NCBI GenBank assembly: GCA_937871935.1
Contig: CALMQI010000097.1
Location: 1 to 64,000 of the forward strand
Reading direction: 5' to 3'
Length of the DNA: 64,000 nt
Source of the DNA: an uncultured Burkholderiales bacterium
Lineage (GTDB): Bacteria > Pseudomonadota > Gammaproteobacteria > Burkholderiales > Burkholderiaceae_C
Part shown: in pieces, positions 17,450 to 36,556 of the stretch
Layout of the letters: each line of letters opens with the position of its first letter
How positions within the stretch are numbered: position 1 is the first letter of the stretch
Made by a program: the position numbers and the translations under genes
The notes under the pieces: model-generated
Databases searched by the model: none
Seen by the model: the letters and a program-made list of their open reading frames with translations, nothing else
What the model was told of the DNA's origin: nothing

Positions 17450-17592
17450 TCAGGGTGTTGTCGGCCGAACTAGGGGGGTGCACGCAGCGTGTTGGCAGCC
17501 GATCCGTCGCAAAATGCAACTGCTGTCGTTCGGACCCCGCGTCCCTGCTGTACCGACAGTCGTTCAACAACGGATCTACGCAAGGAAATGTC

Positions 17593-18132
17593 GTGAGCAA
17601 CGAGTCGACCGGCCTGAATGCCAAGGGCAGCGCGCGCCGCAAGCTCATTCGAGGTTCATTCGCCGTGCCGGCCGTGCTGACGCTGTACAACGGCGGCGCG
17701 ATGGCGGCCACGTCGATCAACAACAGCCTCAAGCGACAGAACAACCACCCGGTGACCAAGTACACGTCCAGCTCGGATGACCTGTGGTTCCGTGATCGGT
17801 TGTGGGGCTGGGTGAAGAACGGCGACGTCAAGTACGGCGCTGGACTCTGGATCAAGGGCTCCGGCCTGGTCAGATTCAGGGTTCAAGGCAATTCGGTTTG
17901 GCTCCCGAGCAATGGCTTTCAGCGATTCGACCGCATGACGAACTCGCTGGTCGGGAATGTGGTTTATGACATCCCGAGCGGCCCTCCTGAGTACAAGCTT
18001 GTTCAAGTCAATCACTGGGTCTCCCTGCGCGTCGACGCCAACGGCAACCTGACCGGCGCCGGCAGCACCGGCAGCGGCTCCGCGGTGGCCGACTCCTGCT
18101 GGAACTCGTTCGCGGCCGGCGTGCAGAGCTGA
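17593..18132 (+). CDS. Small exported protein of the HprK-related/PqqD-like cassette (function unknown)
   Basis: GTG start; N-terminus SARRKLIRGSFAVPAVLTLYNGGAMAATS is signal-peptide-like; C-terminus has a lone Cys (ADSCWNSFAAGVQS); 1-nt overlap with the next gene. Confidence 0.6.
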   Translation: MSNESTGLNAKGSARRKLIRGSFAVPAVLTLYNGGAMAATSINNSLKRQNNHPVTKYTSSSDDLWFRDRLWGWVKNGDVKYGAGLWIKGSGLVRFRVQGNSVWLPSNGFQRFDRMTNSLVGNVVYDIPSGPPEYKLVQVNHWVSLRVDANGNLTGAGSTGSGSAVADSCWNSFAAGVQS

Positions 18133-18398
18133 TGCGGTTCGTCTGCAGCGCCGGGCTGCGGATCGAGCCTTTCGGTGACAGCTGGGCCGCCTATTGCGCC
18201 CGGTCGGGCGAATCGCTGCAACTCAACACTGAAGCCGCGGCAGTACTGGAAGTGCTGGCCGAAGGCCCGCAGGACGCCGATGCGGTGCACCGCATCCTGG
18301 CAAGCGACAGCGAGACGCCGCTCGAGATCGTGCGCGAACGCATGCACGATGTCTGGTCTGAACTGCTCGCCAACGGTCTGGTCGTCGAGGTCGCCTGA
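18132..18398 (+). CDS. PqqD-related small protein (HPr-rel-A type cassette)
   Basis: 88 aa, LNTEAAAVLEVLAEGPQDADAVHRILASDSE...VWSELLANGLVVEVA; position next to HprK-like kinase. Confidence 0.7.
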   Translation: MRFVCSAGLRIEPFGDSWAAYCARSGESLQLNTEAAAVLEVLAEGPQDADAVHRILASDSETPLEIVRERMHDVWSELLANGLVVEVA

Positions 18399-18432
18399 CT
18401 AGAATCCGGCGATAGCCGGGGAGGCCGCGCCG

Positions 18433-19446
18433 TTGGCGCCTTCAAGCGATTCGCCCCAAAGTCTGGTCCAGACCGACCTGTCCACGATCCGGACCGCACT
18501 GAGCGATGCCGGCCTCTGGCTGGACTTCGGCGCCGCCATCCTGCGATTGCAGTCGGACTCACCCGCGCTCGCTGCGCAGGTGCAGAGCGTCTATCGGCAC
18601 TTTCCGCTGGTCACGCAGGCGCCCTGGGCCGACATCCACGTGCGCATCGGCCGGCAAGGCGGGATTCGCCGCTGGCTGCGCCCGCAGGTCACCTTCTCGT
18701 GCGACGGCAGCCGACCGTTCGATCCGTTTCCCGCGTCTGCACCGCTGCCATTGCTCGAGTGGGGCACCAACTGGGTCTTCGGCAGGCGGATGAACGACCT
18801 GCTGTTGTTCCATGCCGGGGCGGTGGAGCGCGACGGCCTGACGCTGCTGCTGCCCGCGCTGCCCGGATCAGGCAAGAGCACATTGACGGCCGCACTGGCG
18901 AGCAGCGGTTGGCGGCTGCTGTCCGACGAATTCGGCGCCTGGGATCCGCTTCGTCAGGAGTTTCGCGCCGTCCTGAAGCCGGTGGCGCTGAAGAACGAGT
19001 CGATCGCGGTCATCCGCCGATTCGCGCCGCAGGCGCATCTGGGGCCGGAGTTCCCGAACACGCGCAAGGGCACCGTCGTGCATCTGAGTGCCGATGCAGT
19101 GTCGGTTGCGCGGCGGCACCAGCCGGCCTCGCCGGGCGCGGTCGTGCTGCCCCAATGGAGCGAGGGCAGCGCCACGGTGCTGCAGCCGCTGTCGCCGGAC
19201 CGGGTGTTTGCGCTGCTCGCGTTCAACTCCTTCAACTACTCGGTACTGGCCGAAGTCGGCTTCGACGCCGTGGTGCAGCTCGTCCGCCGCTGTCCGGCCT
19301 GGCAGCTGACCTACAGTCGGCTGGACGAGGCGGTGGCCGCATTGAATGATCTGTGGACCGACGGGCGGGTCCGCCGGCGCAGCGGGCCGGCCGACGCCGA
19401 GGCCGAGGCCGATTCGATCGACCGGCACACCCATGACAGTGCCTGA
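18433..19446 (+). CDS. HprK-related kinase A
   Basis: HprK-like P-loop LLLPALPGSGKSTLTAALASSGWRLLSDEFG. Confidence 0.8.
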   Translation: MAPSSDSPQSLVQTDLSTIRTALSDAGLWLDFGAAILRLQSDSPALAAQVQSVYRHFPLVTQAPWADIHVRIGRQGGIRRWLRPQVTFSCDGSRPFDPFPASAPLPLLEWGTNWVFGRRMNDLLLFHAGAVERDGLTLLLPALPGSGKSTLTAALASSGWRLLSDEFGAWDPLRQEFRAVLKPVALKNESIAVIRRFAPQAHLGPEFPNTRKGTVVHLSADAVSVARRHQPASPGAVVLPQWSEGSATVLQPLSPDRVFALLAFNSFNYSVLAEVGFDAVVQLVRRCPAWQLTYSRLDEAVAALNDLWTDGRVRRRSGPADAEAEADSIDRHTHDSA

Positions 19447-20572
19447 GCCGCTGCGGTTTCTCGCCGCCATCCGCGAGCCCGGGCGTGCGCTCGACTGGAC
19501 GATCGAGGATTGGCAGCGCATCGTGCGCTTGAGCCGGCGGTTGCGACTGCTCTCGCGGCTGGCTGCGGGGCTGCAAGCACAGGCCTTGCTGGACGCCGTG
19601 CCGGCGCCCGCCCGCCGGCATCTGGTGGCCGAGCTGCAACTGTCGCGCTGGCGCGTGACGGCCATGCGCTGGGCCCTCGAGCGGGTCGGCGCGGCGCTCG
19701 CGGACTGCCACCACCCGATCGTCCTGCTCAAGGGCGCGGCTTACATCGGGCAGGACCTGTCGATCGCGCGGGGGCGCATGCCGGCCGACGTGGACATCCT
19801 GGTGCCGCGCGAGCACATCGCCGTCGCCCAGGATCGCCTGAGACAAGCCGGCTGGCAGGAGGTGGAACTCGACGCGCACGACCAGCGTTACTACCGCGAA
19901 TGGAGTCACGAGGTACCCCCGATGCGGCACCCGGTGCATCGCATCGAGCTCGACCTGCACCACAACGTGCTGCCGCCGGTGGCGAAGATCCATGTCGACG
20001 CAGCCCGGCTGCTCGGGCGCATCCGGCCGTCCCGGCTGCCGGGCTGGTCAGTCTTCGACCCGGTCGATCAGTTCCTGCATGCCGCTGCCCATCTCTTCTG
20101 CGACTCCGAACTGCGCGACCGCATCCGCGACCTGGTCGACCTCGACGAACTCGCCCGACATTTCGCGGACGCGGACGCGAGGTTCTGGCCGTCACTGGGC
20201 GAGCGCGCCGCGGAACTCGGCCTGTCGGAGCCGCTAGCGCTGGCCGCACACCTTCTGGTGACCTGGTTCAACACCCCGATCCCGGCGCAGACGCTGAATC
20301 AGGTGCGTCAGGCCGGCCCCGGCACCTGGCACCGCTGGTGGCTGCTGCCTGTCATGACGCGCGTGCTGATGCCGGTGGAACCCGATCGCGAGGCGGGCTG
20401 GCCGGTGCGCCTGGCCGACGCCCTGGTGCTGGCGCGCTACCACCGCAATCGCATGCCGCTGAAGTTGCTGGCGCCCCATCTGCTGCACAAGGCGTTCGGC
20501 CAGCGCCCGACGCCGCCCTTGCCGCAGGCGCCCCTGGGCGTGACCGAGCGACCCCGACCGCCCGACGCCTGA
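19433..20572 (+). CDS. Nucleotidyltransferase family protein (uncharacterised, cassette-associated)
   Basis: VLLKGAAYIGQDLSIARGRMPADVDILVPREHI; overlaps stop of the kinase gene. Confidence 0.75.
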   Translation: MTVPEPLRFLAAIREPGRALDWTIEDWQRIVRLSRRLRLLSRLAAGLQAQALLDAVPAPARRHLVAELQLSRWRVTAMRWALERVGAALADCHHPIVLLKGAAYIGQDLSIARGRMPADVDILVPREHIAVAQDRLRQAGWQEVELDAHDQRYYREWSHEVPPMRHPVHRIELDLHHNVLPPVAKIHVDAARLLGRIRPSRLPGWSVFDPVDQFLHAAAHLFCDSELRDRIRDLVDLDELARHFADADARFWPSLGERAAELGLSEPLALAAHLLVTWFNTPIPAQTLNQVRQAGPGTWHRWWLLPVMTRVLMPVEPDREAGWPVRLADALVLARYHRNRMPLKLLAPHLLHKAFGQRPTPPLPQAPLGVTERPRPPDA

Positions 20573-21349: not shown

Positions 21350-23236
21350 ATGAGCGTAGCGAACTGGACGACGCGGTTGCTGGCCGATGGTGCGACGGGT
21401 GGCACCATGCGACGTCCGCTGCCCGTGGCGCGGCTCGATCCCACCTTCTCGGACGACAAGGCGCCAGCCGAGGCCGCAGCGCACCCGCTGATCGGCAGCC
21501 GCGTCGGCGCCTACCTGATCACCAAGCGGCTCGGCGCCGGCGGCGTCGGCGAGGTGTTCAAGGGCGTCGACGTGATGCTCAAGCGCGACGTGGCGATCAA
21601 GGTCCTGCGCGACGAACTGGCCGCCGACCCGTTGTTCCTCAAGCGCTTCAGCAACGAGGCCCAGCTGCAGGCCAAGCTGAGCCACCCCAACGTCGCGGCG
21701 CTGCATGCCTTCGTGCAGGAGGGCGACAAGCCGTTGATGGTGATGGAGTTCGTGGCCGGCGTCGCGCTGGACGAGTTCGTCCTGGCCGGCGGCCCGGTGC
21801 CGGTCGAACGGGCGCTGAACATCTTCCGCCGGGTGCTCGACGGCATCGAGCATGCGCACGGCTGCGGCATCGTGCACCGCGACATCAAGCCGGCCAACAT
21901 CATGCTGGCCGACAACGGCCAGGTGAAGGTGATGGACTTCGGCATCGCCCGGGCCATCGACAGCCAGGAGCACCTGACGCGCATCGGGCAGGTGGCCGGC
22001 ACCGCCAAGGCGATGTCGCCCGAGCAGATCCGCGGCGGCCAGGCCGATGCACGCTCCGACATCTACTCGCTCGGCATCGTGCTGTACACGCTGCTGGCCG
22101 GGCGCGCGCCCTTCGACGGCGACAACGACCACGCGCTGATGATGGCGCAGCTGCAGCACGCACCGCCGCCGCTGCGCGACGCGGTCGACGGCCTGTCGCC
22201 GGCCCTGGAGAGCGCGGTCATGCGCGCAATGGAAAAAGACCCGGCCGCGCGCTTCCAGACCGTGCGCGAGTTCGCCCGCGCCATCGACGCCTGCATGGCG
22301 GCGCCGAAGGTCCAGCCGTCCGATGCCACCGCGCACCCGTTCGGGACGCAGACGGACGCGCGAACCGTCATCAACCCCGTCCTGCAGGGTGTTCAGCGCC
22401 TGCCCGCCAGCGATGCCGGCGGGCCGCCGGCCACCGGGCCGAGCCGCGCGGCCCGTGTCTGGCCGCCCGTGAACAAGCGCGTGATCGCCGCAACCTTGAC
22501 CTTGCCCGCGCTCATCACCGGTGCGGTGCTGTCGTGGCCGCTGCTGTGGACGCCCGACGCGCCGCCGCCGGCCGCCGCCGCGCTGTCCTCAGCCGAGGTC
22601 GACTCGACGCCCGCCGTGCAACCGGCGCCAATCGCGCCGGCCCCGATCCAGACCCGCGCGACCGCCACGCCAGCGGACATGCCGCTGGCGGCCGACTCAC
22701 CGAGCCCGGTGCCTCCGACCCCACCCGCCACGGACCGTGCCACGCCGGCGCGCACCCTGGCGATCCTGCGCCTGGCTGCCGACGGCCGCGTCGATCCGGC
22801 GCGGGCCGCCGCCGGCCCGGCAACCGCGGCGACGAGTGACGACGACGTGCACCGCTTCGAGCCGGGCGAGCAGATCCGGCTGCTGGTCGCGCCGAGCAGC
22901 GACACCCATGTCTACTGCTATCTGCAGGACGAGGCCCGGCGCATCCTGCGCTTCTATCCCAATCGCTTCCACAAGAGCGCTCTGGTGAAGGCCGGCGCTG
23001 CACAGGAGATCCCGGGCAAGATGCGCTTCGAGCTGGTGGCCAACACCCTGGGCGTGCCGGAGACCGTCGCCTGCTTCGCCAGCGCGCGCGACGTGATGGC
23101 CGAGCTGCCACCGGCCGTGGTCGGCACCGACCTCACGCCGCTTCCGGTGGGCTCGCTGGACGAAGTCCGGGCGGCGTTCTCCGGCGTGGCCTCGCAGCCC
23201 CTGTCCGAAGGACGCTTCCGCATCGAGGTCCGTTGA
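21350..23236 (+). CDS. Membrane Ser/Thr protein kinase (Hanks type) with C-terminal DUF4384-like domain
   Basis: LGAGGVGEVFKG, VAIKVL, HRDIKPANIM, MDFGIAR; TM ~RVIAATLTLPALITGAVLSWPLLW; C-term FEPGEQIRLLVAPSSDTHVYCYLQDEARRILRFYPN. Confidence 0.9.
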   Translation: MSVANWTTRLLADGATGGTMRRPLPVARLDPTFSDDKAPAEAAAHPLIGSRVGAYLITKRLGAGGVGEVFKGVDVMLKRDVAIKVLRDELAADPLFLKRFSNEAQLQAKLSHPNVAALHAFVQEGDKPLMVMEFVAGVALDEFVLAGGPVPVERALNIFRRVLDGIEHAHGCGIVHRDIKPANIMLADNGQVKVMDFGIARAIDSQEHLTRIGQVAGTAKAMSPEQIRGGQADARSDIYSLGIVLYTLLAGRAPFDGDNDHALMMAQLQHAPPPLRDAVDGLSPALESAVMRAMEKDPAARFQTVREFARAIDACMAAPKVQPSDATAHPFGTQTDARTVINPVLQGVQRLPASDAGGPPATGPSRAARVWPPVNKRVIAATLTLPALITGAVLSWPLLWTPDAPPPAAAALSSAEVDSTPAVQPAPIAPAPIQTRATATPADMPLAADSPSPVPPTPPATDRATPARTLAILRLAADGRVDPARAAAGPATAATSDDDVHRFEPGEQIRLLVAPSSDTHVYCYLQDEARRILRFYPNRFHKSALVKAGAAQEIPGKMRFELVANTLGVPETVACFASARDVMAELPPAVVGTDLTPLPVGSLDEVRAAFSGVASQPLSEGRFRIEVR

Positions 23237-23262: not shown

Positions 23263-23292
23263 TTGAACCGTCGGACGGCCGGGCGCAACTCA
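23263..23292 (+). promoter_or_regulatory. Putative shared regulatory element (site 2, upstream of peptide gene 1)
   Basis: TTGAACCGTCGGACGGCCGGGCGCAACTCA. Confidence 0.55.
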
Positions 23293-23353
23293 AGTATCGA
23301 GCAGCAGTGCTCAAGTCCCCAACCCAGCCCCTTTCACCAATTGGAGAATTGAA

Positions 23354-23629
23354 ATGCAAGTCAAAGACCTGTCTGTCGAACTCGATGCCAAGGCCATGAC
23401 CGCTGTGCACGGTGGCGGCGACGTCAACCAGGCCATCGGCCAGTACAACGTGGCGGGCGGCGCGGCTCAAGTGGTCGCCCCCGGCCTGAGCTTCGGCAGC
23501 ACGAACCTGAACGTGAATGCGCCGACGCAGACCAACCTGGCGTCGAACACCGCGTTCAACAGCGAAGTGGACCTGACCAAGTTCGACCTGGACGTGACCA
23601 AGGTTGCCATCGGCGGCATCGTCGGCTGA
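23354..23629 (+). CDS. Double-glycine-leader secreted peptide precursor 1
   Basis: MQVKDLSVELDAKAMTAVHGG|GDVNQAIGQYNVAGG...; paralogue of 23948..24223; RBS-like ggagaattgaaATG. Confidence 0.8.
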   Translation: MQVKDLSVELDAKAMTAVHGGGDVNQAIGQYNVAGGAAQVVAPGLSFGSTNLNVNAPTQTNLASNTAFNSEVDLTKFDLDVTKVAIGGIVG

Positions 23630-23652
23630 AAGCAGCCCCGGTGATGCCACGA

Positions 23653-23670
23653 CACGGCCCCCGGGCCGTG
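23653..23670 (+). other. Hairpin downstream of peptide gene 1
   Basis: CACGGCC-cccg-GGCCGTG. Confidence 0.4.
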
Positions 23671-23737
23671 CCGCTGGTCGATCGAAGCGAGGCCGCGCCC
23701 ACCGGAATCCCCGGCGAGCGCGGCCTTCGCACTCTCT

Positions 23738-23767
23738 CAAGCAAATGTGGCTCCGCCACTTTGCTTG
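23738..23767 (+). terminator. Hairpin CAAGCAAATGTGGC-TCC-GCCACTTTGCTTG (single bulge), possible terminator or REP-like element
   Basis: 13-bp inverted repeat between peptide genes 1 and 2. Confidence 0.5.
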
Positions 23768-23844
23768 CCCCCGCCGGGGGGCGGGCCGGGCTGGCCCAGC
23801 CCTGGGGGCGCTCAACACCGCCACCGCGAAACGCTGAAATCAGT

Positions 23845-23874
23845 TTGAACGCGCGACGCGCAGGCCGCAACTCA
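23845..23874 (+). promoter_or_regulatory. Putative shared regulatory element (site 3, upstream of peptide gene 2)
   Basis: TTGAACGCGCGACGCGCAGGCCGCAACTCA. Confidence 0.55.
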
Positions 23875-23947
23875 AGATTCGAGCAGCAACACAGTTGCTC
23901 AGATCCAAGCCCCACACCCTCACCCCCTACCTACCCGGAGATTCCAA

Positions 23948-24223
23948 ATGCTGATCAAAGACCTGTCCATCGAACTCGACGCCAAGGCCATGACCGCTGT
24001 GCACGGCGGCGGCGACATCAACCAAGCCATCGGCCAGTACAACGTGGCGGGCGGCGCGGCTCAAGTGGTCGCCCCCGGCCTGAGCTTCGGCAGCACGAAC
24101 CTGAACGTCAACGCCCCCACGCAAACCAACGCCGCCTCGAACACGGCATTCAACAGCGATGTGGACGTCGACCTGTTCAAGCTCGACATCACCAAGGTTG
24201 CCATCGGCGGCATCGTCCTCTAA
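23948..24223 (+). CDS. Double-glycine-leader secreted peptide precursor 2
   Basis: MLIKDLSIELDAKAMTAVHGG|GDINQAIGQYNVAGG...; near-identical to peptide 1. Confidence 0.8.
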   Translation: MLIKDLSIELDAKAMTAVHGGGDINQAIGQYNVAGGAAQVVAPGLSFGSTNLNVNAPTQTNAASNTAFNSDVDVDLFKLDITKVAIGGIVL

Positions 24224-24231
24224 GACAAGCC

Positions 24232-24263
24232 GGCCCCGGCACGGCGAAAGCCCTGCCGGGGCC
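24232..24263 (+). other. GAAA-tetraloop hairpin between peptide genes 2 and 3
   Basis: GGCCCCGGCA-c-GGC-GAAA-GCC-c-TGCCGGGGCC. Confidence 0.5.
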
Positions 24264-24294
24264 CCGTCGAAGCACACACTCCAGGAGCACTCTC

Positions 24295-24570
24295 ATGATG
24301 ATCAAGGACCTCGAAGTGGCGCGCGAAATGAGCCACGAAGAGCAGGCTGCCGTTCACGGCGGTACCGGCCCGTCGCTGACGCAACTGACCCAGGGCGTCA
24401 ACGTCAACGGCGATGCGACACTGATCGCTGAACAGTTCGGCATCGGCAACGTCGCCGTGCTGGTCGACGCACCCGTGCAGCTGAACCTCGGCGTGAACGT
24501 GGGCGCGAACATCGCCCCGGCCGTGAACGTGTCGCCCAAGATCGAAACCAACGGCGGCATCTTCTTCTGA
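24295..24570 (+). CDS. Double-glycine-leader secreted peptide precursor 3
   Basis: MMIKDLEVAREMSHEEQAAVHGG|TGPSLTQLTQGVNVNGD...; C-terminal part of ORF 23641..24570. Confidence 0.75.
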   Translation: MMIKDLEVAREMSHEEQAAVHGGTGPSLTQLTQGVNVNGDATLIAEQFGIGNVAVLVDAPVQLNLGVNVGANIAPAVNVSPKIETNGGIFF

Positions 24571-24618
24571 AGCCCGCCACGGCACAGCCCGTGCCGTCGT
24601 CCCTGAGAAGACTTGCGA

Positions 24619-24654
24619 GGCCGCACCCAAAGCACGAAGCTGGCGGGTGCGGCC
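24619..24654 (+). other. Hairpin between peptide genes 3 and 4
   Basis: GGCCGCACCC-16 nt-GGGTGCGGCC; preceded by ACGGCAC-agccc-GTGCCGT at 24579-24597. Confidence 0.45.
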
Positions 24655-24701
24655 CTCGTTCGACGAATCCTCGAACCTCCAACCCGGGAGACCCAGACAT
24701 G

Positions 24702-24983
24702 ATCGCCATTTCCGACCTGCCCGTCAGCCGCGCTCTGGACATCAGGGCCATGGGGTCCCTGCGCGGGGGCCTCGGCAGCGGCCTGTGGACGCTGGGTGCC
24801 TTCCAGCCCTACTCCGAGCCCGTGGTCAGCCAGATGCCCGGCGGCATCAACTTCTTCTCGATCACCAACAACACCACCTACATCGGCCAGGTCGTCAACA
24901 ACTACACGGTGTTCGACGTCGACAACTCCGGCGACGGCGCCAACGTCACCGCCCTGCTGATCGGCAACAGCCAGGGCGGCTGA
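24702..24983 (+). CDS. Double-glycine-leader secreted peptide precursor 4 (divergent)
   Basis: MIAISDLPVSRALDIRAMGSLRGG|LGSGLWTLGAF...; same leader spacing. Confidence 0.65.
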   Translation: MAISDLPVSRALDIRAMGSLRGGLGSGLWTLGAFQPYSEPVVSQMPGGINFFSITNNTTYIGQVVNNYTVFDVDNSGDGANVTALLIGNSQGG

Positions 24984-25007: not shown

Positions 25008-25832
25008 GTGAAGCAAGCGGCCATGGGTTCCGGCGGAACACCCGGCGCGACAGCGCGCGAGACGAGCGAGGTCTGCTGGACCTCGGCGTCGCGCTCGCAT
25101 CCCGGCCGGGTGCGTGAAGTCAACGAGGATGCCTGCCTCGAACAGCCTCTGTGCGGCGTATGGGCCGTGGCCGACGGCATGGGCGGCCACTCGCTGGGCG
25201 AATTCGCCAGCCGCCTGGCCATCCGCAGCCTGATGGATCTGCCGCCCTCGGGCACGCTGGAACAGCGCGCGGCGCTGGTCGAAGCGCGCCTGCTGGAGGC
25301 TAACCGCCGGCTGCGCGCCGAAGCGGCGCGGCGCGACGTGCCGGTGATCGGCACCACGATCGCGGCCCTGCTGGTGGCGCAACGCCGCTTCGCCTGCGTG
25401 TGGGCCGGCGACAGCCGGGTCTACCTCTATCGCGAAGGACGGCTGTGGCAGCTGACGCGCGACCACAGCCAGCTCGAAGCGGTGCGCTCGGTACACGTGG
25501 CGTCGTCCGACGACACGCTCGACCGGCCCGCGGCCAATGTGATCACGCGCGCCCTCGGCGGCGGCGACAGCCTCGAACTCGACGCCGTGGGCGCCGATCT
25601 GGCCGACGGCGATGTCTTCCTGTTGTGCAGCGACGGCCTGACCAACGAGGTCGGCGACGTGGCCATCATGCAGGCGCTGATGCCGGGCAACTGCCGCCTG
25701 GCGGCCGACGCGCTGGTGGAGCTCGCGCTGGAGCGCGGCGGCCACGACAACATCACCGTCGTGGTGGCGCGTGCCGAAGACCTGTCGAGCCCGGACCGCA
25801 CCGTGCTGCATCCGGTGATGAAGGCGGACTGA
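25008..25832 (+). CDS. PP2C-family Ser/Thr protein phosphatase
   Basis: REVNEDACL, WAVADGMGGH, LLCSDGLTNEV, GGHDNITVVVAR. Confidence 0.9.
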   Translation: MKQAAMGSGGTPGATARETSEVCWTSASRSHPGRVREVNEDACLEQPLCGVWAVADGMGGHSLGEFASRLAIRSLMDLPPSGTLEQRAALVEARLLEANRRLRAEAARRDVPVIGTTIAALLVAQRRFACVWAGDSRVYLYREGRLWQLTRDHSQLEAVRSVHVASSDDTLDRPAANVITRALGGGDSLELDAVGADLADGDVFLLCSDGLTNEVGDVAIMQALMPGNCRLAADALVELALERGGHDNITVVVARAEDLSSPDRTVLHPVMKAD

Positions 25833-25911
25833 GGTCACTGCCTGTCGCGCGGCCTCCTGGCCGCTCGGGGGCCCCCGCCGCAGCAGTGTTTCGGGTGGCC
25901 CGCGAGGCGAG

Positions 25912-26955
25912 TCACCTCGCCCGCGGCAGCTGCAGGATCGCGCGCAGACCTCCGCTGCGCCTGTTTTCCAGGACGACGGTTCCGCCGTGGTAGGCCGCCG
26001 CGTCGCGCACGATCGCCAGACCCAGGCCCACGCCGCCGGTGTCCAGCCTGCGCGACGCGTCGAGGCGGACAAAGGGCTCGGTCACCCGGGTGAGGTCGCC
26101 TTGCGGGATCCCCGGCCCGTCGTCCTCGATGATCACGCGCAGGCAAGCCGCGCTGTCTTCGATCCGTACGGTCACGTTCTTGCCGTGCGCCACCGCGTTG
26201 TCGATCAGGTTGGTCACCGCACGCTTGAGGATCGACAGCTTGCCGGCATAGGGCGCGGGCATCTGCGGGCCCGGTGCCACGCCCTCCAGGCGCACCTGGC
26301 GCCCGAGGGCCCTCTCGTCCTCGACGATGCTGGACACCAGGGCCTCGATGTTGATCGGCTGCACCGGCTCGGCGTCCTCGATGCCGCGCAGGTAGGACAG
26401 CACGCTGTCGACCATGCCCTGCATGGCGTCGATGTCGGCGTTGAGCTTGGCCTGCAGTGCCGCGTCGTCCACCAGTTCGGCACGCAGGCGCATGCGCGTG
26501 AGCGGCGTGCGCAGGTCGTGCGAGACGGCGGCAAGAGCCCTGCCGCGCTCCACCACCAGCCGGCGCAGGCGCTGCTGCATGAAGTTGAACGCCTCGGCCG
26601 CACGCATCACTTCGGTCGGTCCGCTCACGGGCAGCGGCGCAGCGTCCAGGTCGTGGGCAAACGCGGTTGCGGCCGAGGCCATCTGCTGCAAGGGCTTCGT
26701 CGCCCAGCGCACGGCCACCAGCGCGACGACGATGACCGCCCCGAGCGTCAGCGAGACATGCCAGATGAAGCGCAGCGGCAGCGCGTCGAAGCCCGGCATG
26801 CCGGGGTGCACATGGCCGCCGGCCATCATCGCCGCGCGCTCCTGCAGGTGCAGCAGCAGGCTGGCGAACTGCGCCGCCAGCAGGCCCAGCACCAGGATCA
26901 GCGTCATGCGGCCCGACAGCGAGCGCGGCAGCAGTTTCACGAGCTTCAGTCGCAT
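25912..26955 (-). CDS. Sensor histidine kinase (EnvZ-like, HAMP)
   Basis: AVSHDLRTPLTRMRLRAEL H-box, NLIDNAVAHG, DDGPGIP, GGVGLGLAIVRD. Confidence 0.9.
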   Translation of the reverse strand: MRLKLVKLLPRSLSGRMTLILVLGLLAAQFASLLLHLQERAAMMAGGHVHPGMPGFDALPLRFIWHVSLTLGAVIVVALVAVRWATKPLQQMASAATAFAHDLDAAPLPVSGPTEVMRAAEAFNFMQQRLRRLVVERGRALAAVSHDLRTPLTRMRLRAELVDDAALQAKLNADIDAMQGMVDSVLSYLRGIEDAEPVQPINIEALVSSIVEDERALGRQVRLEGVAPGPQMPAPYAGKLSILKRAVTNLIDNAVAHGKNVTVRIEDSAACLRVIIEDDGPGIPQGDLTRVTEPFVRLDASRRLDTGGVGLGLAIVRDAAAYHGGTVVLENRRSGGLRAILQLPRAR

Positions 26956-27677
26956 GAGGGCAGGCCCTCCACGGCGGCAGCCAGCACGTAGCCTTCGCCA
27001 CGCACGGTCTTGATCAGGCCCGACTCGCGCCCCGTATCCTGCAGGCGCTGGCGCAAGCGGCTGATCTGCACGTCGATCGCGCGGTCGTAGGGCTCGGCCT
27101 CGCGGCCATGGATCAGCTCGACCAGCTGGTCGCGGTTGAGCACGCGATTCGGGTGATCGAGCAGGATGCGCAGCAAGCGGTACTCGGCGCCCGACAGCGG
27201 TGTGGCCACACCGTCGGCACCGGTGAGCACGCGGGTGGCCGTGTCCAGTTTCCAGCCCGCAAAGGCCAGGCAGCGCTGGCTGTCCGGCTTCAGGTTGGGC
27301 GGCAGCGAGCGGGTGCGGCGCAGGATGCTCTTGATGCGCGCCAGCAGCTCGCGCGGACTGAAGGGCTTGACGAGATAGTCGTCGGCGCCCATCTCGATGC
27401 CGAGAATGCGGTCGGTCTCCTCGCCGCGTGCCGTGAGCATCAGCACCGGCAGGTTGGACTTCGCACGCAGGTCGCGGCACAGCGTCAGGCCGTCGGCGTC
27501 GGGCAGCATCAGGTCGAGCACCACCAGGTCGACGGCGTGTTTGTCCAGCATCTGCCACATGTCGCGGCCGCTGCCCGCCGGCACGGGGTCGAAGCCGTTG
27601 CGCGCCAGGTAGTCCACCAGCAACTGGCGGATCTCGGGATCGTCGTCGACGATCAGGATGCTGTCTTTGCGGTCCAT
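26946..27677 (-). CDS. OmpR-family response regulator
   Basis: ILIVDDDPEIRQLL, VLDLMLPDADG, winged-helix C-term RLLRILLDHPNRVLNRDQLVELIHGREAEPYDRAIDVQISRLRQRL; overlaps kinase start. Confidence 0.92.
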   Translation of the reverse strand: MDRKDSILIVDDDPEIRQLLVDYLARNGFDPVPAGSGRDMWQMLDKHAVDLVVLDLMLPDADGLTLCRDLRAKSNLPVLMLTARGEETDRILGIEMGADDYLVKPFSPRELLARIKSILRRTRSLPPNLKPDSQRCLAFAGWKLDTATRVLTGADGVATPLSGAEYRLLRILLDHPNRVLNRDQLVELIHGREAEPYDRAIDVQISRLRQRLQDTGRESGLIKTVRGEGYVLAAAVEGLPSCD

Positions 27678-27849
27678 GGCGCTAGCGTCGCCGAGCGCGG
27701 TGCCCGGTTGCGGCGAGTTTTGTATCGCAGTGTTGCATGTGCCGGAATCGCAGGCTGGCGATGCAAATCGCCTAACTGCCGTCAACCTCGCCGGTGGCTT
27801 CTGCAGGTTCAATGCGTGTTGTCGCGACTCGGCCTCAGGCCCATCGAAC

Positions 27850-28605
27850 ATGTCGAACGTCTTTTCATTCGGAGAACGCCTCGACGGCTATGCCGTGCCG
27901 GTGTTGAACGAACGGGCCGTGCGCGCCGCCGCCGGCATCGTGTTCTTCTTCGCGATCGTCGCATTCATGAACGCCTGGCTGACCGGCAACTTCCAGCCGA
28001 CGCGGGTGTTCGTGGTCGCCTTCCTGGTCGACTTCACGATCCGCATCTTCGTCAACCCGAAGTTCGCGCCCAGCCTGATCCTCGGGCAATGGATGGTGCG
28101 CAAGCAGCAGCCCGAGTGGGTGGGCGCACCGCAGAAGCGCTTCGCGTGGGCGATCGGCTTCGTGCTCGCGCTGGTGATGCTGTACCTCATCGTCATCAAG
28201 CACGTGATCGGGCCGATCAACCTGATCGTCTGCGCAGCCTGCCTGGTGCTGCTGTTCTTCGAGACCGCCTTCGGCATCTGCATCGGCTGCAAGGTCTACA
28301 ACGTGTTCAACAAGAACCAGGCGCAGCTGTGCCCCGGCGGCGTCTGCGAGTTCGTACCTGCGCAAGGCGCCGGCGGCGGCTGGGCGCATGCGGCGGTGGT
28401 GCTCGCCTTCGTCGGCGTCGTCGGCGCGTGGACGAGCCACGTGGCGGCCAACGATCCCTATGTCCGGCGGGTCATGCCAGCCACGGCGCCGGCTGCGGCC
28501 TCGCCAGCGGTCGATGCGGCCGAGGCCGAGCGCTGCAAGGTACCCGACTTCGCCAAGGCCATCGGCCATGAAGAAAAGTGGAAGCTCCACAACAACTGCC
28601 AGTGA
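27850..28605 (+). CDS. DUF4395-domain membrane protein
   Basis: LNERAVRAAAGIVFFFAIVAFMNAWLTGNFQPTRVFVVAFLVDFTIRIFVNPKFAPS...CIGCKVYN. Confidence 0.8.
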   Translation: MSNVFSFGERLDGYAVPVLNERAVRAAAGIVFFFAIVAFMNAWLTGNFQPTRVFVVAFLVDFTIRIFVNPKFAPSLILGQWMVRKQQPEWVGAPQKRFAWAIGFVLALVMLYLIVIKHVIGPINLIVCAACLVLLFFETAFGICIGCKVYNVFNKNQAQLCPGGVCEFVPAQGAGGGWAHAAVVLAFVGVVGAWTSHVAANDPYVRRVMPATAPAAASPAVDAAEAERCKVPDFAKAIGHEEKWKLHNNCQ

Positions 28606-28612
28606 GACGCCC

Positions 28613-29317
28613 ATGAGTCTTGTCATTGCGGAAGGCCTGACCAAGACCTATCGCGCCGGCGACGTGGAGGTGCCCGCCATCAAGGGCGCCGATTTCGTCA
28701 TCGCGCCGGCGTCCTTCGTCGCCTTCGTCGGCCCATCGGGCAGCGGCAAGAGCACGCTGCTGAACATGATCGGCTGCCTCGACCATCCGACCGCCGGCAA
28801 GCTGAGCGTTCTGGGCACCGACATCGCCACGCTGGACCGCCGCGCCGCGGCCGACTTCCGCGGCAAGAACATCGGCTTCATCTTCCAGGACTTCAACCTG
28901 GTGCCGGTGCTCACCGCCTACGAGAACATCGAGTACCCGTTGATCATGGTGCAGGAGTGGCCCGCGGCGAAGCGCCGCGAGCAGGTGATGCGCCTGCTCA
29001 AGGCCGTGGGCATGGAGTCCCAGGCCGACAAGCGCCCCGACCAGATGTCGGGCGGGCAGAAGCAGCGTGTCGCGGTGGCGCGGGCCTTGGTGAGCAACGC
29101 CAAGATGGTGCTGGCCGACGAGCCCACCGCCAACCTCGACCACGATACGGCCCATCACGTGATCGACCTGATGAAGCAGATGCGTGACGAGTTCGGCACC
29201 ACTTTCATCTTCTCGACCCACGACCCGAAGATCATGGCCGAGGCCGAGACCACCTACACGCTGGAAGACGGCCACGTGCTGTCACGCGTCCATCACGCGC
29301 AGGCCGCCCATGCTTGA
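28613..29317 (+). CDS. ABC transporter ATP-binding protein (LolD/MacB-like)
   Basis: GPSGSGKSTLLNMIGCLD, MSGGQKQRVAVARAL, LADEPTANLD. Confidence 0.92.
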   Translation: MSLVIAEGLTKTYRAGDVEVPAIKGADFVIAPASFVAFVGPSGSGKSTLLNMIGCLDHPTAGKLSVLGTDIATLDRRAAADFRGKNIGFIFQDFNLVPVLTAYENIEYPLIMVQEWPAAKRREQVMRLLKAVGMESQADKRPDQMSGGQKQRVAVARALVSNAKMVLADEPTANLDHDTAHHVIDLMKQMRDEFGTTFIFSTHDPKIMAEAETTYTLEDGHVLSRVHHAQAAHA

Positions 29318-30617
29318 CGTGCTCAAGATCGCGGGGCGCAACCTCTCGCGCTACCGCCGCCGCACGATGCTGACGCTGCTGCTGATCATCATCGGCATGG
29401 TGGCGGTGCTGCTGTTCATCTCGGTCACCGGCTCCTTCAAGGCCATGATGGTGGGCCAGATCACCGACTCGGTGCTCGGGCACCTGCAGGTGCACCGCAG
29501 AGGCTACGTGGCCTCGATCGACACGCTGCCGCTGAACCTCAACATGAGGCCGATGGCCGTGGCCAACGTGGAGGCGGCGTTGAAGCAGGACCCGGCGGTC
29601 GAGACCTGGTCGCCGCGGATCAAGTTCGGTGGCATGTTCAGCAACTTCACCGAGACGACCAGCATCCGCATCAACGGCGTGGACCCGGTGCGCGAGGCGG
29701 CCACGGCGCCGCTGCTGCCGGGCCGCATGGCCGAAGGGCCGAAGGGTGGCGCACTGGTCGAGAAGGGGCAGATCGTGATCCCGCTGCTGCTGGCCCGCGG
29801 CATGAAGGTCAAGGTCGGCGACACCGCGGTGATCGTCGCGACCAACCGCGACGGCTCGGTCAATGGCAAGACCTTCGTCATCCGCAGCGTCACCGAGGCC
29901 ATCTCCGGCCCCGGCGGACGCGATGGCTACATGCACATCGACGATGCGCGCGAATTGCTGCGCATGAAGGACGCCGAGGTCAGCGAGATCGCGATCCGCC
30001 TGCGGGATCCGGCGCAGCTGGATCGCGTCACGGCCGCGCTCAGCGAAGCGCTGGGCTCCATGAAGGGCAAGTCGCCGAGTTCGCCTTCCGGCGCCTCGAG
30101 TGCGGGCACCGTCAACGTTGTGGGGCCGGGCAGCGGCCAGCCGCAACTGGAAGTGCACACCTGGGCCGATCTGTCGCCCTTTGCCAGCCTGGCGCGGATG
30201 ATCGATCTGATGACGGTGTTCATCAAGGTGGTGCTGGTGTCCATCGTGCTGGTCAGCGTGATGAACGTGATGGTCATGGCGGTGTACGAGCGCATCCGCG
30301 AGATCGGCACCATCGCGGCCATCGGCACCCGGCCCTCGCGCATCCTGTCGCTGTTACTCGCCGAAGGTCTGCTGCTGGGCCTCATCGGCACGGTGCTGGG
30401 CACGCTTGTCAGCCTGGCGGCGATCTATGCCATCAACCTGTGGCAGCCGCACTTCGCCTTCGGCCAGCAGTCCGACCTGGTGATGGCGCCGACCATCGCC
30501 GTCGCCCAGGTGGTCACGGTGGCGCTGCTCGTCGTGACGGTGGCGATCCTGGCCAGCCTGCAGCCGGCCTGGAAGGCCTCGCGACTCGACCCGATCAACG
30601 CGCTGCGCCATGTCTGA
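29310..30617 (+). CDS. ABC transporter permease (FtsX/MacB-like)
   Basis: RNLSRYRRRTMLTLLLIIIGMVAVLLF; C-term FtsX TMs and ASLQPAWKASRLDPINALRHV. Confidence 0.9.
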   Translation: MLDVLKIAGRNLSRYRRRTMLTLLLIIIGMVAVLLFISVTGSFKAMMVGQITDSVLGHLQVHRRGYVASIDTLPLNLNMRPMAVANVEAALKQDPAVETWSPRIKFGGMFSNFTETTSIRINGVDPVREAATAPLLPGRMAEGPKGGALVEKGQIVIPLLLARGMKVKVGDTAVIVATNRDGSVNGKTFVIRSVTEAISGPGGRDGYMHIDDARELLRMKDAEVSEIAIRLRDPAQLDRVTAALSEALGSMKGKSPSSPSGASSAGTVNVVGPGSGQPQLEVHTWADLSPFASLARMIDLMTVFIKVVLVSIVLVSVMNVMVMAVYERIREIGTIAAIGTRPSRILSLLLAEGLLLGLIGTVLGTLVSLAAIYAINLWQPHFAFGQQSDLVMAPTIAVAQVVTVALLVVTVAILASLQPAWKASRLDPINALRHV

Positions 30618-30636
30618 TCACAGCCTGGAGAACAAG

Positions 30637-31371
30637 ATGCGCAAGCTGTTGTCCCTGATCGCGCTGGCCTGGCTGCTGCTGGCCGCGCCCGCCTTCGCCG
30701 TCGACGGCACGGCGCTGCTGCAGCAGCTCGACCGCAAGCTGGAACCCGAGAGCTACGAGATGGTGCGCAAGCTCGTCAACATCGAGCCCGACGGTTCGCG
30801 CAAGGAGTTCGTGCTGTATTCGGTGAAGAAGGGCAAGGACAAAATCGCCGCGCTGTTCCTCGACCCGGCCAGCGAACGCGATCGCGCCACGCTGCGGCTG
30901 GGCGAGAACATGTGGCTGTACATCCCCAACGTCGGCAAGCCGCTGCGCATCACCAGCCTGCAATCGGTGACGGGCGGCATCTTCAACAACGCCGACATCC
31001 TGGCGCTGGAGTTCTCGGTCGAGTACACGGTGGAGAAGGTGGTCGAAGAAGCCACCAGCTACACGCTCTCGCTGAAGGCGCGCACCGGTGACGTGGCCTA
31101 CGACCGCCTGACGATGAGGGTCGACAGGAAGACCACGCTGCCACTCTCGATCGAGGCCTACGCGGCCAGCGGGCTGCTGATCAAGACGCTGACCTACAAG
31201 GACATCAAGGACTTCGGCGGCGGCATCAGGCGCCCGGCGACGCTGGAGACCGAGAGCCCGCTGCACAAGGGCTACAAGTCGTTGATGCTTTACGGCTCGA
31301 TCAAGGCACGCAAGGTGGCCGACGAAGTCTTCACGCTGGAGTACCTGCCGCGGTTGAAGGAACTGCGGTGA
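30637..31371 (+). CDS. Outer membrane lipoprotein-sorting (LolA-like) protein
   Basis: Signal peptide MRKLLSLIALAWLLLAAPAFA; LRLGENMWLYIPNVGKPLRITSLQSVTGGIFNNADIL. Confidence 0.75.
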   Translation: MRKLLSLIALAWLLLAAPAFAVDGTALLQQLDRKLEPESYEMVRKLVNIEPDGSRKEFVLYSVKKGKDKIAALFLDPASERDRATLRLGENMWLYIPNVGKPLRITSLQSVTGGIFNNADILALEFSVEYTVEKVVEEATSYTLSLKARTGDVAYDRLTMRVDRKTTLPLSIEAYAASGLLIKTLTYKDIKDFGGGIRRPATLETESPLHKGYKSLMLYGSIKARKVADEVFTLEYLPRLKELR

Positions 31372-32657
31372 GGCTCTGCGCGGCCGGCGCGCTGGCTGCC
31401 CTGACCGCGCTGCTGGCCTTGCCGGCGGCGGCCGCCGACGAGAGCTTCGACGCGTCGGCCTACGACAAGAAGGTGTTCGAGTGGACGGGCCTCGTCGAGG
31501 TGCGGCCCGAGCACCAGTGGTTGCGGCCCGGCTCTGCCGGCTATGTGCTGCAGTACCCGGCGCAGATGCGGCACAGCGCCGACCGGCTGGGCGCAGCGGC
31601 CGAGTTGTCGGCCGTGCTGCGCCACCAGTCGCTCAGCTTCGCTTACACCGGACATGCGAGCGCGATCGACGAACCCCGTGGCTCCGACAGCGACTACCGC
31701 CACTACGAGGCCTACGGTGCCTGGCAGATCGACGCGGGCATTCACGTGCTGGTCGGCAAGCGGGCGCTGCGCTGGGGCAAGGGTTACGCCTGGGCTCCGG
31801 TGGCCTTCCTGGAGCGTGCCAGGGATCCGACCGACCCGGAACTTGCACGCGAAGGCTTCGTGATGGCCACCGCTGCCTGGGTGCGCAGCTTCGACGGGCC
31901 GCTGCAGACGTTGTCGATGACCGCGGCCGCCGTGCCCACCACGTCGGGCCTGAATGAGGACTATGGCGGTGGCACCGGCAGCGCCGGGCACACCAATGCG
32001 GCCCTCAAGCTGTACGGTCTGGTCCTCGACACCGACGTCGACCTGATTTGGGCCGCCGCTGGCAGCCTGGGCCCGCGTTTGGGCATCGACTTCTCGCGCA
32101 ACGTCGGCAGCAATCTGGAGATCCACGGCGAGTGGGCACGTGTGCGCGATGCCGCTCGCGTGACGCTGACGTCCGCCAACGCGCTGCAGACGACGAGCCG
32201 GACCCACACCGCTGCGTTGATCGGCGCACGCTATCTGAACGAGCGCGACACCACGGTCATCGTCGAGTTCTACCGCAACGGCGGTGGCTACACGACGGAC
32301 GAGCTCGGCGCGTTCTACGACCTGGTGCACGCGGCAGCGACCGATCCGACACTCATGCCAGCGGCCGGCCGCGCCGCGGCCCAGGGCTACAACCGGCCGA
32401 ACGCCGCACAGCGCTACGCGTACCTGCGCGTGAGCCAGAAGGAGCCGTTCGACATCCTGGATTTCACGCCCTCGCTGAGCCTGATCGCCAACACCGGCGA
32501 CCACAGCTGGTCGCTGATTCCCGAGGTGCTGTACACGGGCGTCAAGAACATCGAATTGCGGGCGCGGCTGGCGCTGAACCGAGGCGACGCCGGCACCGAA
32601 TACGGCGAGCGCGCCGTGCGCTCGCGCCTGGAGCTGCGTGCACGCTGGTTCTTCTGA
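31368..32657 (+). CDS. Predicted outer membrane beta-barrel protein of the ABC/LolA-like module
   Basis: Signal peptide, beta-rich with C-terminal ...RLELRARWFF (terminal Phe); translationally coupled (overlap) to LolA-like gene. Confidence 0.65.
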   Translation: MRLCAAGALAALTALLALPAAAADESFDASAYDKKVFEWTGLVEVRPEHQWLRPGSAGYVLQYPAQMRHSADRLGAAAELSAVLRHQSLSFAYTGHASAIDEPRGSDSDYRHYEAYGAWQIDAGIHVLVGKRALRWGKGYAWAPVAFLERARDPTDPELAREGFVMATAAWVRSFDGPLQTLSMTAAAVPTTSGLNEDYGGGTGSAGHTNAALKLYGLVLDTDVDLIWAAAGSLGPRLGIDFSRNVGSNLEIHGEWARVRDAARVTLTSANALQTTSRTHTAALIGARYLNERDTTVIVEFYRNGGGYTTDELGAFYDLVHAAATDPTLMPAAGRAAAQGYNRPNAAQRYAYLRVSQKEPFDILDFTPSLSLIANTGDHSWSLIPEVLYTGVKNIELRARLALNRGDAGTEYGERAVRSRLELRARWFF

Positions 32658-32690: not shown

Positions 32691-35600
32691 TCAGGCCGCG
32701 CTCAGCTGCTTGTGCACCAGCTCGTAGTACATGCCGCGGCGCTGCACCAGCTCGTCGTGCTTGCCCTGCTCCACGACCTTGCCTTCGTACAGCACGAGGA
32801 TCTTGTCGGCCCGCATGATGGTGCTCAGGCGGTGCGCGATGATCACCGCGGTGCGCCCCTGCAGGATGTCGTTCATGCTGGCGATGATGTTGCTCTCCGA
32901 CTGGGTGTCCAGCGCCGAGGTCGCCTCGTCGAACACCAGCAGCCGCGGGTCGTGGTACAGCGCCCGCGCGATGCACAGGCGCTGGATCTGTCCACCGGAC
33001 AGCCCGGTGCCGCGCTCGCCCACCGTCTGCTCGTAGCCACGCGGCATCTTGCTGATGAAGCCGTGCGCGTCGGCGCGGCGGGCCACCTCTTCGATGCGGC
33101 GCCGGTCCGGCGTGTCGTCGCCGCAGGCGATGTTCTCGGCGATCGTGCCCGAGAACAGCAGGTTGGTCTGCATCACGTAGCCCACCTGTGCCCGGTAGTA
33201 CTCCTTGTCGATCACGTTGATGTCGTAGCCGTCGACCATCAGCTTGCCCTCGGTGGGCGTATAGAAGCCCACCAGCAGCTTGGCCAGCGTGGTCTTGCCC
33301 GAGCCGCTGCGCCCGACGATGGCCACCAGCTCGCCGGGCTTGATCTCGAGGTTGATGTTCTCCAGCACGTAGGGCGTGTCGGCACCGCCATATCGGAAGT
33401 ACACGCCGTCGAACTTGACCTCGCCGCGCAGGTCCGGCAGCGCGACGCGGGTGGCCAGGTCCTCGGGCTTCTGCTCGGGCTCGAGGTCGAGCACATCACC
33501 CAGGCGCTCCATCGCGACCGCGGCGTCGTTGAGCCGGCTCCACAAGCCCACCAGGCCCATCAGCGGCGCGAGCACGCTGCCCATCAGGGCATTGAAGGCC
33601 ATCAGCTGGCCGATGGTCAGCTCGCGCGAGAGCACCAGGCTGGCGCCGGCCCACAGAATGGCGATCGTGGTGGCGGCATTGAGCAGTTGCCCGGCCAGGC
33701 CGACCCAGTTGTTGAACGACTGCGCGCGGTACTGCACCTCGAGCGCCTTGGCGTACTTCATCTCCCACTTCAGCCGCACCGGCCGCTCGATGCCCATGCC
33801 CTTGACGGTCTCGGCGCCGCCCAGAGTTTCCATCAAGTACGACTTGGCGTCGGTCGACGCGCTGAACATCTCGCGCGCGTAGGCCTTGATCTTCGGCGTC
33901 ACCAGCACCGTCAGCACCATGATCGGGATCACGAAGGCGATCAGCAGCAACGTGAGCTTGACGTTGTAGAGGAACATCACCGAGAAGTAGATGAACACCA
34001 TCAACAGGTTCAGCACCGTGGTGACCGTCGACTCGGTGAGAAACGCGCGGATCGTCTGGTTCTCCTGGAAGCGCGCGAAGATATCGCCCGTCTGGCGCTT
34101 GGCGAAGAACGAATACGGCAGCGACAACGTGTGCCTGAAGAACTGCGACATCATCGTGAAGTCGAGCTTGCGCACCATGAAGTTCGACAACGCGGCGCGG
34201 ATCGTCGCCATCACCTGCGTGAACACGCTGGAGATCACCAGCCCGGCAATCAGCAGGTGCAGCAGGTTCACGTTCTGATGCACGATCACGCCGTCCAGGA
34301 TGTTCTGGATGATCATCGGCGGCACGATGCCGAGCACCTGGATCACGAAGGTCGCCAGCATCAGGTGCAGCAGGATCTTGCGGTGCGGAATCAGGTAGCG
34401 CGCGAAGCGCACCCAGGGCGAACGTGAGGCGGTTTCCTCGGCCAGGTTGCTGCGCGGCGTGAACGTCAGGCAGGTGCCGCTCCAGCCGCGCTCGAACTCC
34501 TCCAGGCTCAGCTTCTTGAAGCCGGTGGCCGGGTCGGCCAGCCACACGTGCCGCGCCGACACGCCGTACACCACGACGTAGTGGTAACCCTCCCAGTGGA
34601 CGATGAATGGCAGGTCGAAGCCGCGCAGCGCGTCGAAGGTGCACTGCACGCCGCGCGTGGTGAAGCCGAGCGACTCGCCGGTGCGCGCCAGGCTGTCGAG
34701 CGTGGCGCCCGACGTCGTCACGTTGGCCAGCTCGCGCAGCTTGCCCAGCGTCATGTTGATGCCGTAGTGCTTGCAGATCATGGCCAGGCAGGCCGCACCG
34801 CAGTCCATCTGCTCGGCCTGCTGGATCCAGGCAAAACGCTTGAGCACACGCTCGCCGAGCTCGGCCTTGGACTTCAGGTCGAGCAGCGACGCCGGCTTGC
34901 GTCGCTCGGCCAGGCGCTTCTGCCGCTGCAGTTCACGATCGAGCACCCGCACGCGCTCGGCCAGCACCTCGCGCAGCTTCGGGTTGCGCTCCAGGATGAA
35001 CGTCACCGTCTTTTCCGGGATCACCAGCAGCGCGGTCTCGGTGTGGGCGACCACCGCGGCATCGTGCTCCTGGCGCATCAGGCAGGCCCGCTCGCCGAAG
35101 GTGTCGCCATCGCGCAGCGTGGCCAGCGGGTAGTCGTTACCCTCCTCCTGCCGCACGATGCGCACTTCGCCGTGGCGCACCACGTACAGGCGCCGGTCGT
35201 CGCGCGAGCCCTGCTTGACGATCTCCTTGCCGGCGTCGACCTGCTTGACGCCGACGCTGCGGATGATCTCCTCGAGCTCGTCCTTGTCGACCTTGCCGCG
35301 CAGGTCGAACAGCTGGCTGATCAAGCCACCCGCCGAACCGATGGCGACCCGGCTCGCGACGAACGCACGCGCCGCCGGGTTGGCAGCGATGATCGGCGCC
35401 ACCACCGCGCGTGGGATGATCAGCAGCTCGGTCTTCGCCGACGCGCGCGCCGACACCTCGTGGCGGTGCTCGCGCAGCACCACCATCTCGCCGAACACGT
35501 CGCCGGCCTTGCGCACGCCCTGGCTGACCTCCTTGCCGGCCTCCTCGGCAAAGATGCGCACGGTGCCCGACTTGATCACGCAAAGACCGTCGGCCACGTC

Positions 35601-35747
35601 ACCCGCCTTGCAGGCGGTGTCGCCGAACGCCAGCCAGCGCGACTGCGCCGCCTCGGCGAGGCGCTCGATGTCCTTGCGCGTCAGCGCCGACAGCAGGTCG
35701 ACAGTGGCCAGGAAATCGGCGCGTGACTTCAGCTCTTGCGGGTCCAT
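32691..35747 (-). CDS. Peptidase-containing ABC exporter with two N-terminal cNMP-binding-like domains, C39 peptidase, TMD and NBD
   Basis: C39 triad: QAEQMDCGAACLAM, HWEGYHYVVVYGV, LADPATG; NBD GRSGSGKTTLAK, LSGGQIQRLCIARAL; two cNMP-like repeats (GDVFGEMVVLREH, GDTFGERACLMRQ). Confidence 0.93.
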   Translation of the reverse strand: MDPQELKSRADFLATVDLLSALTRKDIERLAEAAQSRWLAFGDTACKAGDVADGLCVIKSGTVRIFAEEAGKEVSQGVRKAGDVFGEMVVLREHRHEVSARASAKTELLIIPRAVVAPIIAANPAARAFVASRVAIGSAGGLISQLFDLRGKVDKDELEEIIRSVGVKQVDAGKEIVKQGSRDDRRLYVVRHGEVRIVRQEEGNDYPLATLRDGDTFGERACLMRQEHDAAVVAHTETALLVIPEKTVTFILERNPKLREVLAERVRVLDRELQRQKRLAERRKPASLLDLKSKAELGERVLKRFAWIQQAEQMDCGAACLAMICKHYGINMTLGKLRELANVTTSGATLDSLARTGESLGFTTRGVQCTFDALRGFDLPFIVHWEGYHYVVVYGVSARHVWLADPATGFKKLSLEEFERGWSGTCLTFTPRSNLAEETASRSPWVRFARYLIPHRKILLHLMLATFVIQVLGIVPPMIIQNILDGVIVHQNVNLLHLLIAGLVISSVFTQVMATIRAALSNFMVRKLDFTMMSQFFRHTLSLPYSFFAKRQTGDIFARFQENQTIRAFLTESTVTTVLNLLMVFIYFSVMFLYNVKLTLLLIAFVIPIMVLTVLVTPKIKAYAREMFSASTDAKSYLMETLGGAETVKGMGIERPVRLKWEMKYAKALEVQYRAQSFNNWVGLAGQLLNAATTIAILWAGASLVLSRELTIGQLMAFNALMGSVLAPLMGLVGLWSRLNDAAVAMERLGDVLDLEPEQKPEDLATRVALPDLRGEVKFDGVYFRYGGADTPYVLENINLEIKPGELVAIVGRSGSGKTTLAKLLVGFYTPTEGKLMVDGYDINVIDKEYYRAQVGYVMQTNLLFSGTIAENIACGDDTPDRRRIEEVARRADAHGFISKMPRGYEQTVGERGTGLSGGQIQRLCIARALYHDPRLLVFDEATSALDTQSESNIIASMNDILQGRTAVIIAHRLSTIMRADKILVLYEGKVVEQGKHDELVQRRGMYYELVHKQLSAA

Positions 35748-35769
35748 GTCGTTGACGCCGGTGCGCCTT

Positions 35770-36522: not shown

Positions 36523-36556
36523 CTGAAATGCTCCGTGTCGTTGTGGTGTGTGTGTC

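Follow-up and report, generated by a model that had tools for sequence, protein, structure and literature searches.

Four tandem double-glycine proteins are probable substrates of a C39 exporter encoded with FHA, phosphatase and kinase genes in Burkholderiales

Four small proteins with double-glycine (GG) leaders, which we call A to D, are encoded in tandem in the window (the whole stretch of Burkholderiales DNA that was analyzed, 64,000 nucleotides), and they are very probable substrates of the C39-type export system encoded at 32691-41815. Unmodified, C39-processed export had been proposed in an earlier note on this DNA, and the proposal, including the view that no RiPP chemistry is involved, is well supported by the intact exporter operon, the near-perfect co-occurrence of D with the exporter, the conserved GG leaders on diverging cores and the lack of a RiPP enzyme among conserved neighbors. 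That account held in part, in that it recognized the GG proteins and missed the FHA/phosphatase/kinase module, the existence of two substrate types and the promoters, all of which are described below.

The GG proteins and their leaders

The four genes lie on the forward strand:

23354-23629, + strand: GG protein A, variable "abc" type, 91 aa (leader 23354-23416, mature part 70 aa)
23948-24223, + strand: GG protein B, variable "abc" type, paralogue of A, 91 aa (leader 23948-24010, mature part 70 aa)
24295-24570, + strand: GG protein C, variable "abc" type with a divergent core, 91 aa (leader 24295-24363, mature part 68 aa)
24699-24983, + strand: GG protein D, conserved type, 94 aa (leader 24699-24770, mature part 70 aa)

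All four ORFs, their positions and their leaders were confirmed as first described, with an alternative second ATG at 24298 in C and a longer frame starting with GTG at 24591 listed for D. The leader had been called shared, which is exact for A and B only, while C and D carry leaders of the same family on different cores. A strict leader pattern applied to both strands of the 64 kb matched exactly four ORFs, namely A to D, compared with a chance level of 0.02–0.08 ORFs per 64 kb in 60 first-order Markov sequences with matched dinucleotide composition. Leader positions -4 and -12 are hydrophobic in all four proteins and position -7 is Met in A, B and D; C39 peptidases recognize leaders of this kind, with hydrophobic residues at -4 and -12 and Met at -7. 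A and B are 88% identical, with dN/dS values of 0.065/0.334 (about 0.2) in the leader and 0.098/0.285 (about 0.34) in the core, and these low ratios, a sign of purifying selection, indicate that both are maintained coding genes. Between A and B, the stretch 23640-23840 is G+C-rich with hairpin-like repeats, and no such stretch separates the other GG genes.

The mature parts proved to be 68–70 aa long (70, 70, 68 and 70 aa), free of Cys and rich in N and Q (N+Q 17–18%), as had been noted, and they contain 6–10% charged residues with a net charge of -3 to -4. The alternating hydrophobicity ascribed to them was significant for C alone (z = 4.65), and not for A (1.6), B (1.3) or D (-0.95); across the family, beta-type alternation was weak (mean z 0.4–0.5). 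AlphaFold2 predictions gave pLDDT values of 46 and 51, leaving the cores without a fold. Comparison of the cores with Pfam, NCBIfam and PDB profiles returned weak, scattered matches only and no known structural family, a Pfam scan of 42 members detected no curlin repeats, and the GG proteins did not match the NHLP or Nif11-type leader families of NCBIfam.

The exporter operon and its relatives

The exporter is encoded in an operon (32691-41815) whose genes overlap or are closely spaced:

32691-35747, - strand: exporter with two cNMP_binding domains, Peptidase_C39, and ABC membrane and ATPase domains (C39 residues C316/H389/D405)
35770-36522, - strand: SurA_N/rotamase peptidyl-prolyl isomerase without a TM-like segment
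36557-37930, - strand: HlyD-type membrane-fusion protein
37927-40458, - strand: double-FHA protein with a single TM segment around residue 353 (translation may start later, at the ATG at 40431)
40418-41815, - strand: TolC-type outer-membrane efflux protein (OEP)

The C39 domain is fused to the ABC membrane and ATPase domains, its residues C316, H389 and D405 align with the catalytic residues of PCAT1, and the ATPase motifs are intact. Since the operon is encoded on the strand opposite to the GG genes, with some 7 kb between it and the PP2C phosphatase gene that follows D, transcription shared with the GG genes is excluded. The intervening stretch (25835-32657, ~7 kb) encodes OmpR/EnvZ-type two-component proteins, an ABC transporter, a LolA-like protein and a possible outer-membrane protein.

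Using B as a query directly against genome contigs, we found no relative; because the cores diverge too fast for such a scan, the search was switched to the exporter. The exporter was then found in three other genomes of the window's genus, where the PP2C gene adjoins the exporter without the ~7 kb present in the window and where the slot between kinase and phosphatase holds 3–5 GG ORFs in each. A wider scan with one genome per species yielded 65 loci, including loci from Paraburkholderia, Caballeronia, Noviherbaspirillum, Cupriavidus, Rhizobacter, Nitrococcus, Haliea, Competibacter and Desulfonema, and roughly 60 loci of beta-, gamma- and deltaproteobacteria share the operon of TolC, double-FHA, HlyD, SurA-type isomerase and exporter genes. 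Among 48 loci (window included), the isomerase was present in 47, TolC in 45, FHA in 45 and HlyD in 44. Most exporters with long enough flanks have GG-leader ORFs alongside, and these fall into a variable, often multi-copy type, to which A, B and C belong, and a conserved, mostly single-copy type, represented by D, with the core motif ..APWVFGWI..NNFYADQMINQFQ... The conserved type occurs also in two gamma loci.

Co-occurrence of D with the exporter

D matched a profile of its homologues with an E value of 1e-28. Of the 251 genomes compared within one Burkholderiales family, 81 encoded both D and the exporter, 169 encoded neither and none encoded the exporter alone; the remaining genome contained a D fragment with a stop, without an exporter. 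The association (Fisher p = 4e-66) is uncorrected for phylogeny, and because close relatives among these genomes are not independent the p-value overstates its strength, although the pattern spans seven genera. D and exporter lay on the same contig in 76 of the 81 pairs, with a median gap of 3.9 kb. An order-wide sample gave the same picture, D and the exporter both being found in the same 3 of 300 genomes. In plasmid records containing D, the gene table, which is incomplete, annotated no gene at D. In about one third of the genomes sampled from a large Burkholderiales family associated with soil and plants, the GG proteins seem to be a component of the exoproteome that has gone unnoticed.

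A kinase and a phosphatase flank the GG genes

The GG genes are flanked by a kinase gene to the left of A and a PP2C gene to the right of D:

21350-23236, + strand: receptor-type Ser/Thr kinase with a cytoplasmic kinase domain, one predicted TM segment near residue 378 and a C-terminal DUF4384 domain
25008-25832, + strand: PP2C-type protein phosphatase

Ser/Thr kinase, PP2C and FHA proteins are thus co-encoded in the window with their key motifs present, those of the kinase and phosphatase being intact in a sequence check. The DUF4384 kinase was found at 7 of 8 Ideonella-type loci but was rare at the others, being largely limited to the window's genus and near relatives; given this rarity, we do not regard it as a core part of the system. 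Beside the kinase gene, the region 17455-20572 holds an HPr-rel-A-type cluster (PqqD-like protein, HprK-related kinase A and NTP_transf_5).

Promoters and a genus-specific upstream element

At beta, gamma and delta loci, the exporter gene is followed by a gene for a sigma-54 activator (Sigma54_activat, E 2e-70), and outside the window's genus -24/-12 boxes (TGGCAC-N5-TTGCA-like) precede D and the first GG gene of the cluster. These boxes lie mostly 55–107 bases upstream, and we counted 35 strong sites compared with 0.27 expected from shuffles. The window's genus lacks both the activator gene after the exporter and the -24/-12 boxes, and before the window's own GG genes no sigma-54 promoter was found (best 6–8 of 11). 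Here, a different element precedes the variable GG genes:

23285-23306, + strand: genus-specific 22-bp element upstream of A, GCAACTCAAGTATCGAGCAGCA, followed by a GAGCA...TGCTC dyad
23867-23888, + strand: the same 22-bp element upstream of B

Its general form in the genus is GCAACTCAAG-N-TTCGAGCAGCA plus a short dyad. Allowing up to 3 mismatches, six whole genomes of the genus contained four copies, before A, before B and before the first "abc" genes of two relatives (G099 and G202); a further genome (G200) held degenerate copies only, and the element was absent from the two genus genomes without the exporter. The consensus hairpin is nearly sequence-invariant and therefore gains no support from covariation. 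The simplest reading of these data is that sigma-54 control would have been lost in the window's genus and another input gained.

Proposed mechanism

In the mechanism that we propose, the C39 domain of the exporter would cut each precursor after the double glycine, and the ABC exporter, HlyD and TolC proteins would move the mature part of about 70 residues out of the cell in a single step, with the cytoplasmic isomerase and the FHA protein possibly assisting or gating export. Activity may be switched by protein phosphorylation, a step suggested by the kinase and PP2C genes that flank the GG genes and by the FHA protein encoded in the exporter operon; judged from these genes, phosphorylation-gated export has an even chance of being correct. 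Once outside, A to D would most likely be components of a structure assembled at the cell surface or in the extracellular space. In this structure, A to C would be the main, variable subunits, and D would be an invariant partner that might nucleate the assembly, form its tip or anchor it.

On our analysis the structural role is about evenly balanced, and the same holds for export and structural role taken jointly. Its plausibility comes from the Cys-free, N/Q-rich, low-charge cores, the lack of a conserved immunity-like ORF, purifying selection on the cores and the precedent of the EbfG proteins discussed below, while the missing AlphaFold2 fold, the failure to match a known structural family and the weak alternation speak against it; the fiber-forming matrix proteins suggested in the earlier note would be compatible with this picture. 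The cores of tandem paralogues were under purifying selection (omega 0.44, 95% 0.32–0.60). We also considered whether cores within a locus are more conserved than leaders, as co-polymerizing subunits might be. The effect was striking in single loci, but pooling the loci left it non-significant (omega, leader minus core, 95% -0.05 to 0.39), and we dropped it as evidence.

Alternative roles for the GG proteins

Three other roles were weighed, each of which we consider less likely than a structural one. A to D could be bacteriocins resembling class II microcins, unmodified and sent out through the same C39 system against competing bacteria; a bacteriocin role had also been raised in the earlier note. 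Class II microcins combine GG leaders with a C39-HlyD-TolC exporter, and both are present here; the best PDB match of one family profile (A4) was precarnobacteriocin B2 (E 0.017, with the match extending into the leader), and C weakly matched a CTB family bacteriocin (E 0.065). This option was weakened by the finding that no small immunity-like ORF is conserved with the GG proteins among the neighbor families of 48 loci, a comparison that an unconserved immunity gene could escape. Moreover, all four cores are acidic, the cores of tandem copies are often near-identical (99% at L025, 89% at L024), and D is kept across genera and present in every sampled exporter genome, so that a bacteriocin role appears unlikely.

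Less likely still is that A to D, or D alone, are secreted signals of population or developmental state. A signaling role would fit the precedent of HetC, which is a C39 exporter, drives cell differentiation and carries a cNMP-type domain at its N terminus (PMC10986499), as the exporter described here carries two cNMP-type domains and the gene beside A encodes a receptor kinase whose DUF4384 domain faces outward; however, mature parts of ~70 aa in several near-identical tandem copies would be atypical of signals, the loci have no conserved dedicated receptor in common, and most of them lack the kinase. It is very improbable that A to D are RiPP precursors whose modifying enzymes are encoded elsewhere. 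Nine of 42 "abc" proteins did give weak hits to TIGR04149, a family modified by rSAM enzymes (best E 2e-4), probably via the leader, and a PqqD-like protein is encoded at 18132-18398, but the conserved neighbors include no modification enzyme, the cores are almost throughout without Cys, and the three genus relatives showed no PqqD/HprK cluster in the matching stretch.

Comparison with known systems

In machinery, the closest known systems are the long-type C39 clusters of cyanobacteria and HetC (PMC3140520, PMC10986499). Cyanobacterial clusters of groups I, II and VI combine a CAP_ED (cNMP-type)-C39-ABC exporter, HlyD, SurA/rotamase and GG precursors (Wang et al. 2011, PMC3140520), all of which are present here too; the loci described here differ in being proteobacterial, in having TolC and double-FHA genes in the operon, in the PP2C and often sigma-54 activator genes alongside, and in substrates without NHLP or Nif11 matches. 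The cNMP-type domain of HetC from Nostoc PCC 7120 binds ppGpp, and the substrate of HetC, for which a signal role has been proposed, is unknown (PMC10986499). The exporter here shares with HetC an N-terminal cNMP-type domain on a C39 exporter, but carries two such domains and has candidate substrates encoded nearby. As D occurs in every sampled exporter genome, a C39 exporter with cNMP-type domains gains a named, testable substrate, which HetC still lacks.

For the substrates, a parallel had been drawn with the EbfG proteins of Synechococcus elongatus, and it is reasonable there, whereas the machinery instead matches the cyanobacterial long-type clusters. EbfG1-4 are four small tandem GG proteins that require the C39 exporter PteB (PMC4997328, PMC9981879), and EbfG1-3 form amyloid while EbfG4 does not (PMC9981879). 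Both systems have the same leader type and four tandem GG proteins in a two-type set, a likeness in behavior; in the accessible parts of those sources, no FHA/PP2C/kinase proteins or cNMP domain like those found here are reported. If the GG proteins do assemble, they would represent a bacterial fiber system exported in one step and not via Sec.

The nearest regulatory kit is the PpkA (kinase)-Fha-PppA (phosphatase) threonine phosphorylation pathway of type VI secretion (T6SS; PMC10482370), in which, as here, a Ser/Thr kinase, an FHA protein and a PP2C phosphatase accompany a secretion machine, and sigma-54 control is likewise found in many T6SS. Here, however, the machine is a type I system, and no T6SS genes were found among the annotated neighbors. 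Such a kit would put type I secretion under phosphorylation control. A literature search, conducted mostly outside subscription journals, returned no publication joining FHA, type I secretion and GG peptides. More tentatively, and on balance doubtfully, the parts may combine into a scheme in which the export of fiber-forming subunits would be gated by T6SS-like threonine phosphorylation (kinase, double-FHA membrane protein and PP2C) and by the nucleotide-sensing domains of the exporter. In this scheme the variable subunits would be built on an invariant D, and the loss of sigma-54 control in the window's genus would go together with kinase linkage and a 22-bp element private to that genus.

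Further GG proteins and neighbors at related loci

A third GG type, short, basic and Arg-rich after ..GGAR.., is common to beta and gamma loci and not present in the window:

L028:17175-17375, L029:265-456, L067:1668-1859, L055:15813-16004, L056:18681-18845, L086:16632-16802: third GG type (..GGAR..)

On a Desulfatirhabdium contig (L073:6674-7048), GG-leader peptides beside a related exporter have Cys/Tyr/Arg-rich cores, unlike the Cys-free cores elsewhere. In Paraburkholderia and Caballeronia, genes recurring beside the locus encode an LRAT-domain protein (L039:16184-16687), a caspase-like C14 protein with an FGE-sulfatase domain (L030:1-1503) and a DUF4399 protein (L042:1938-2363).
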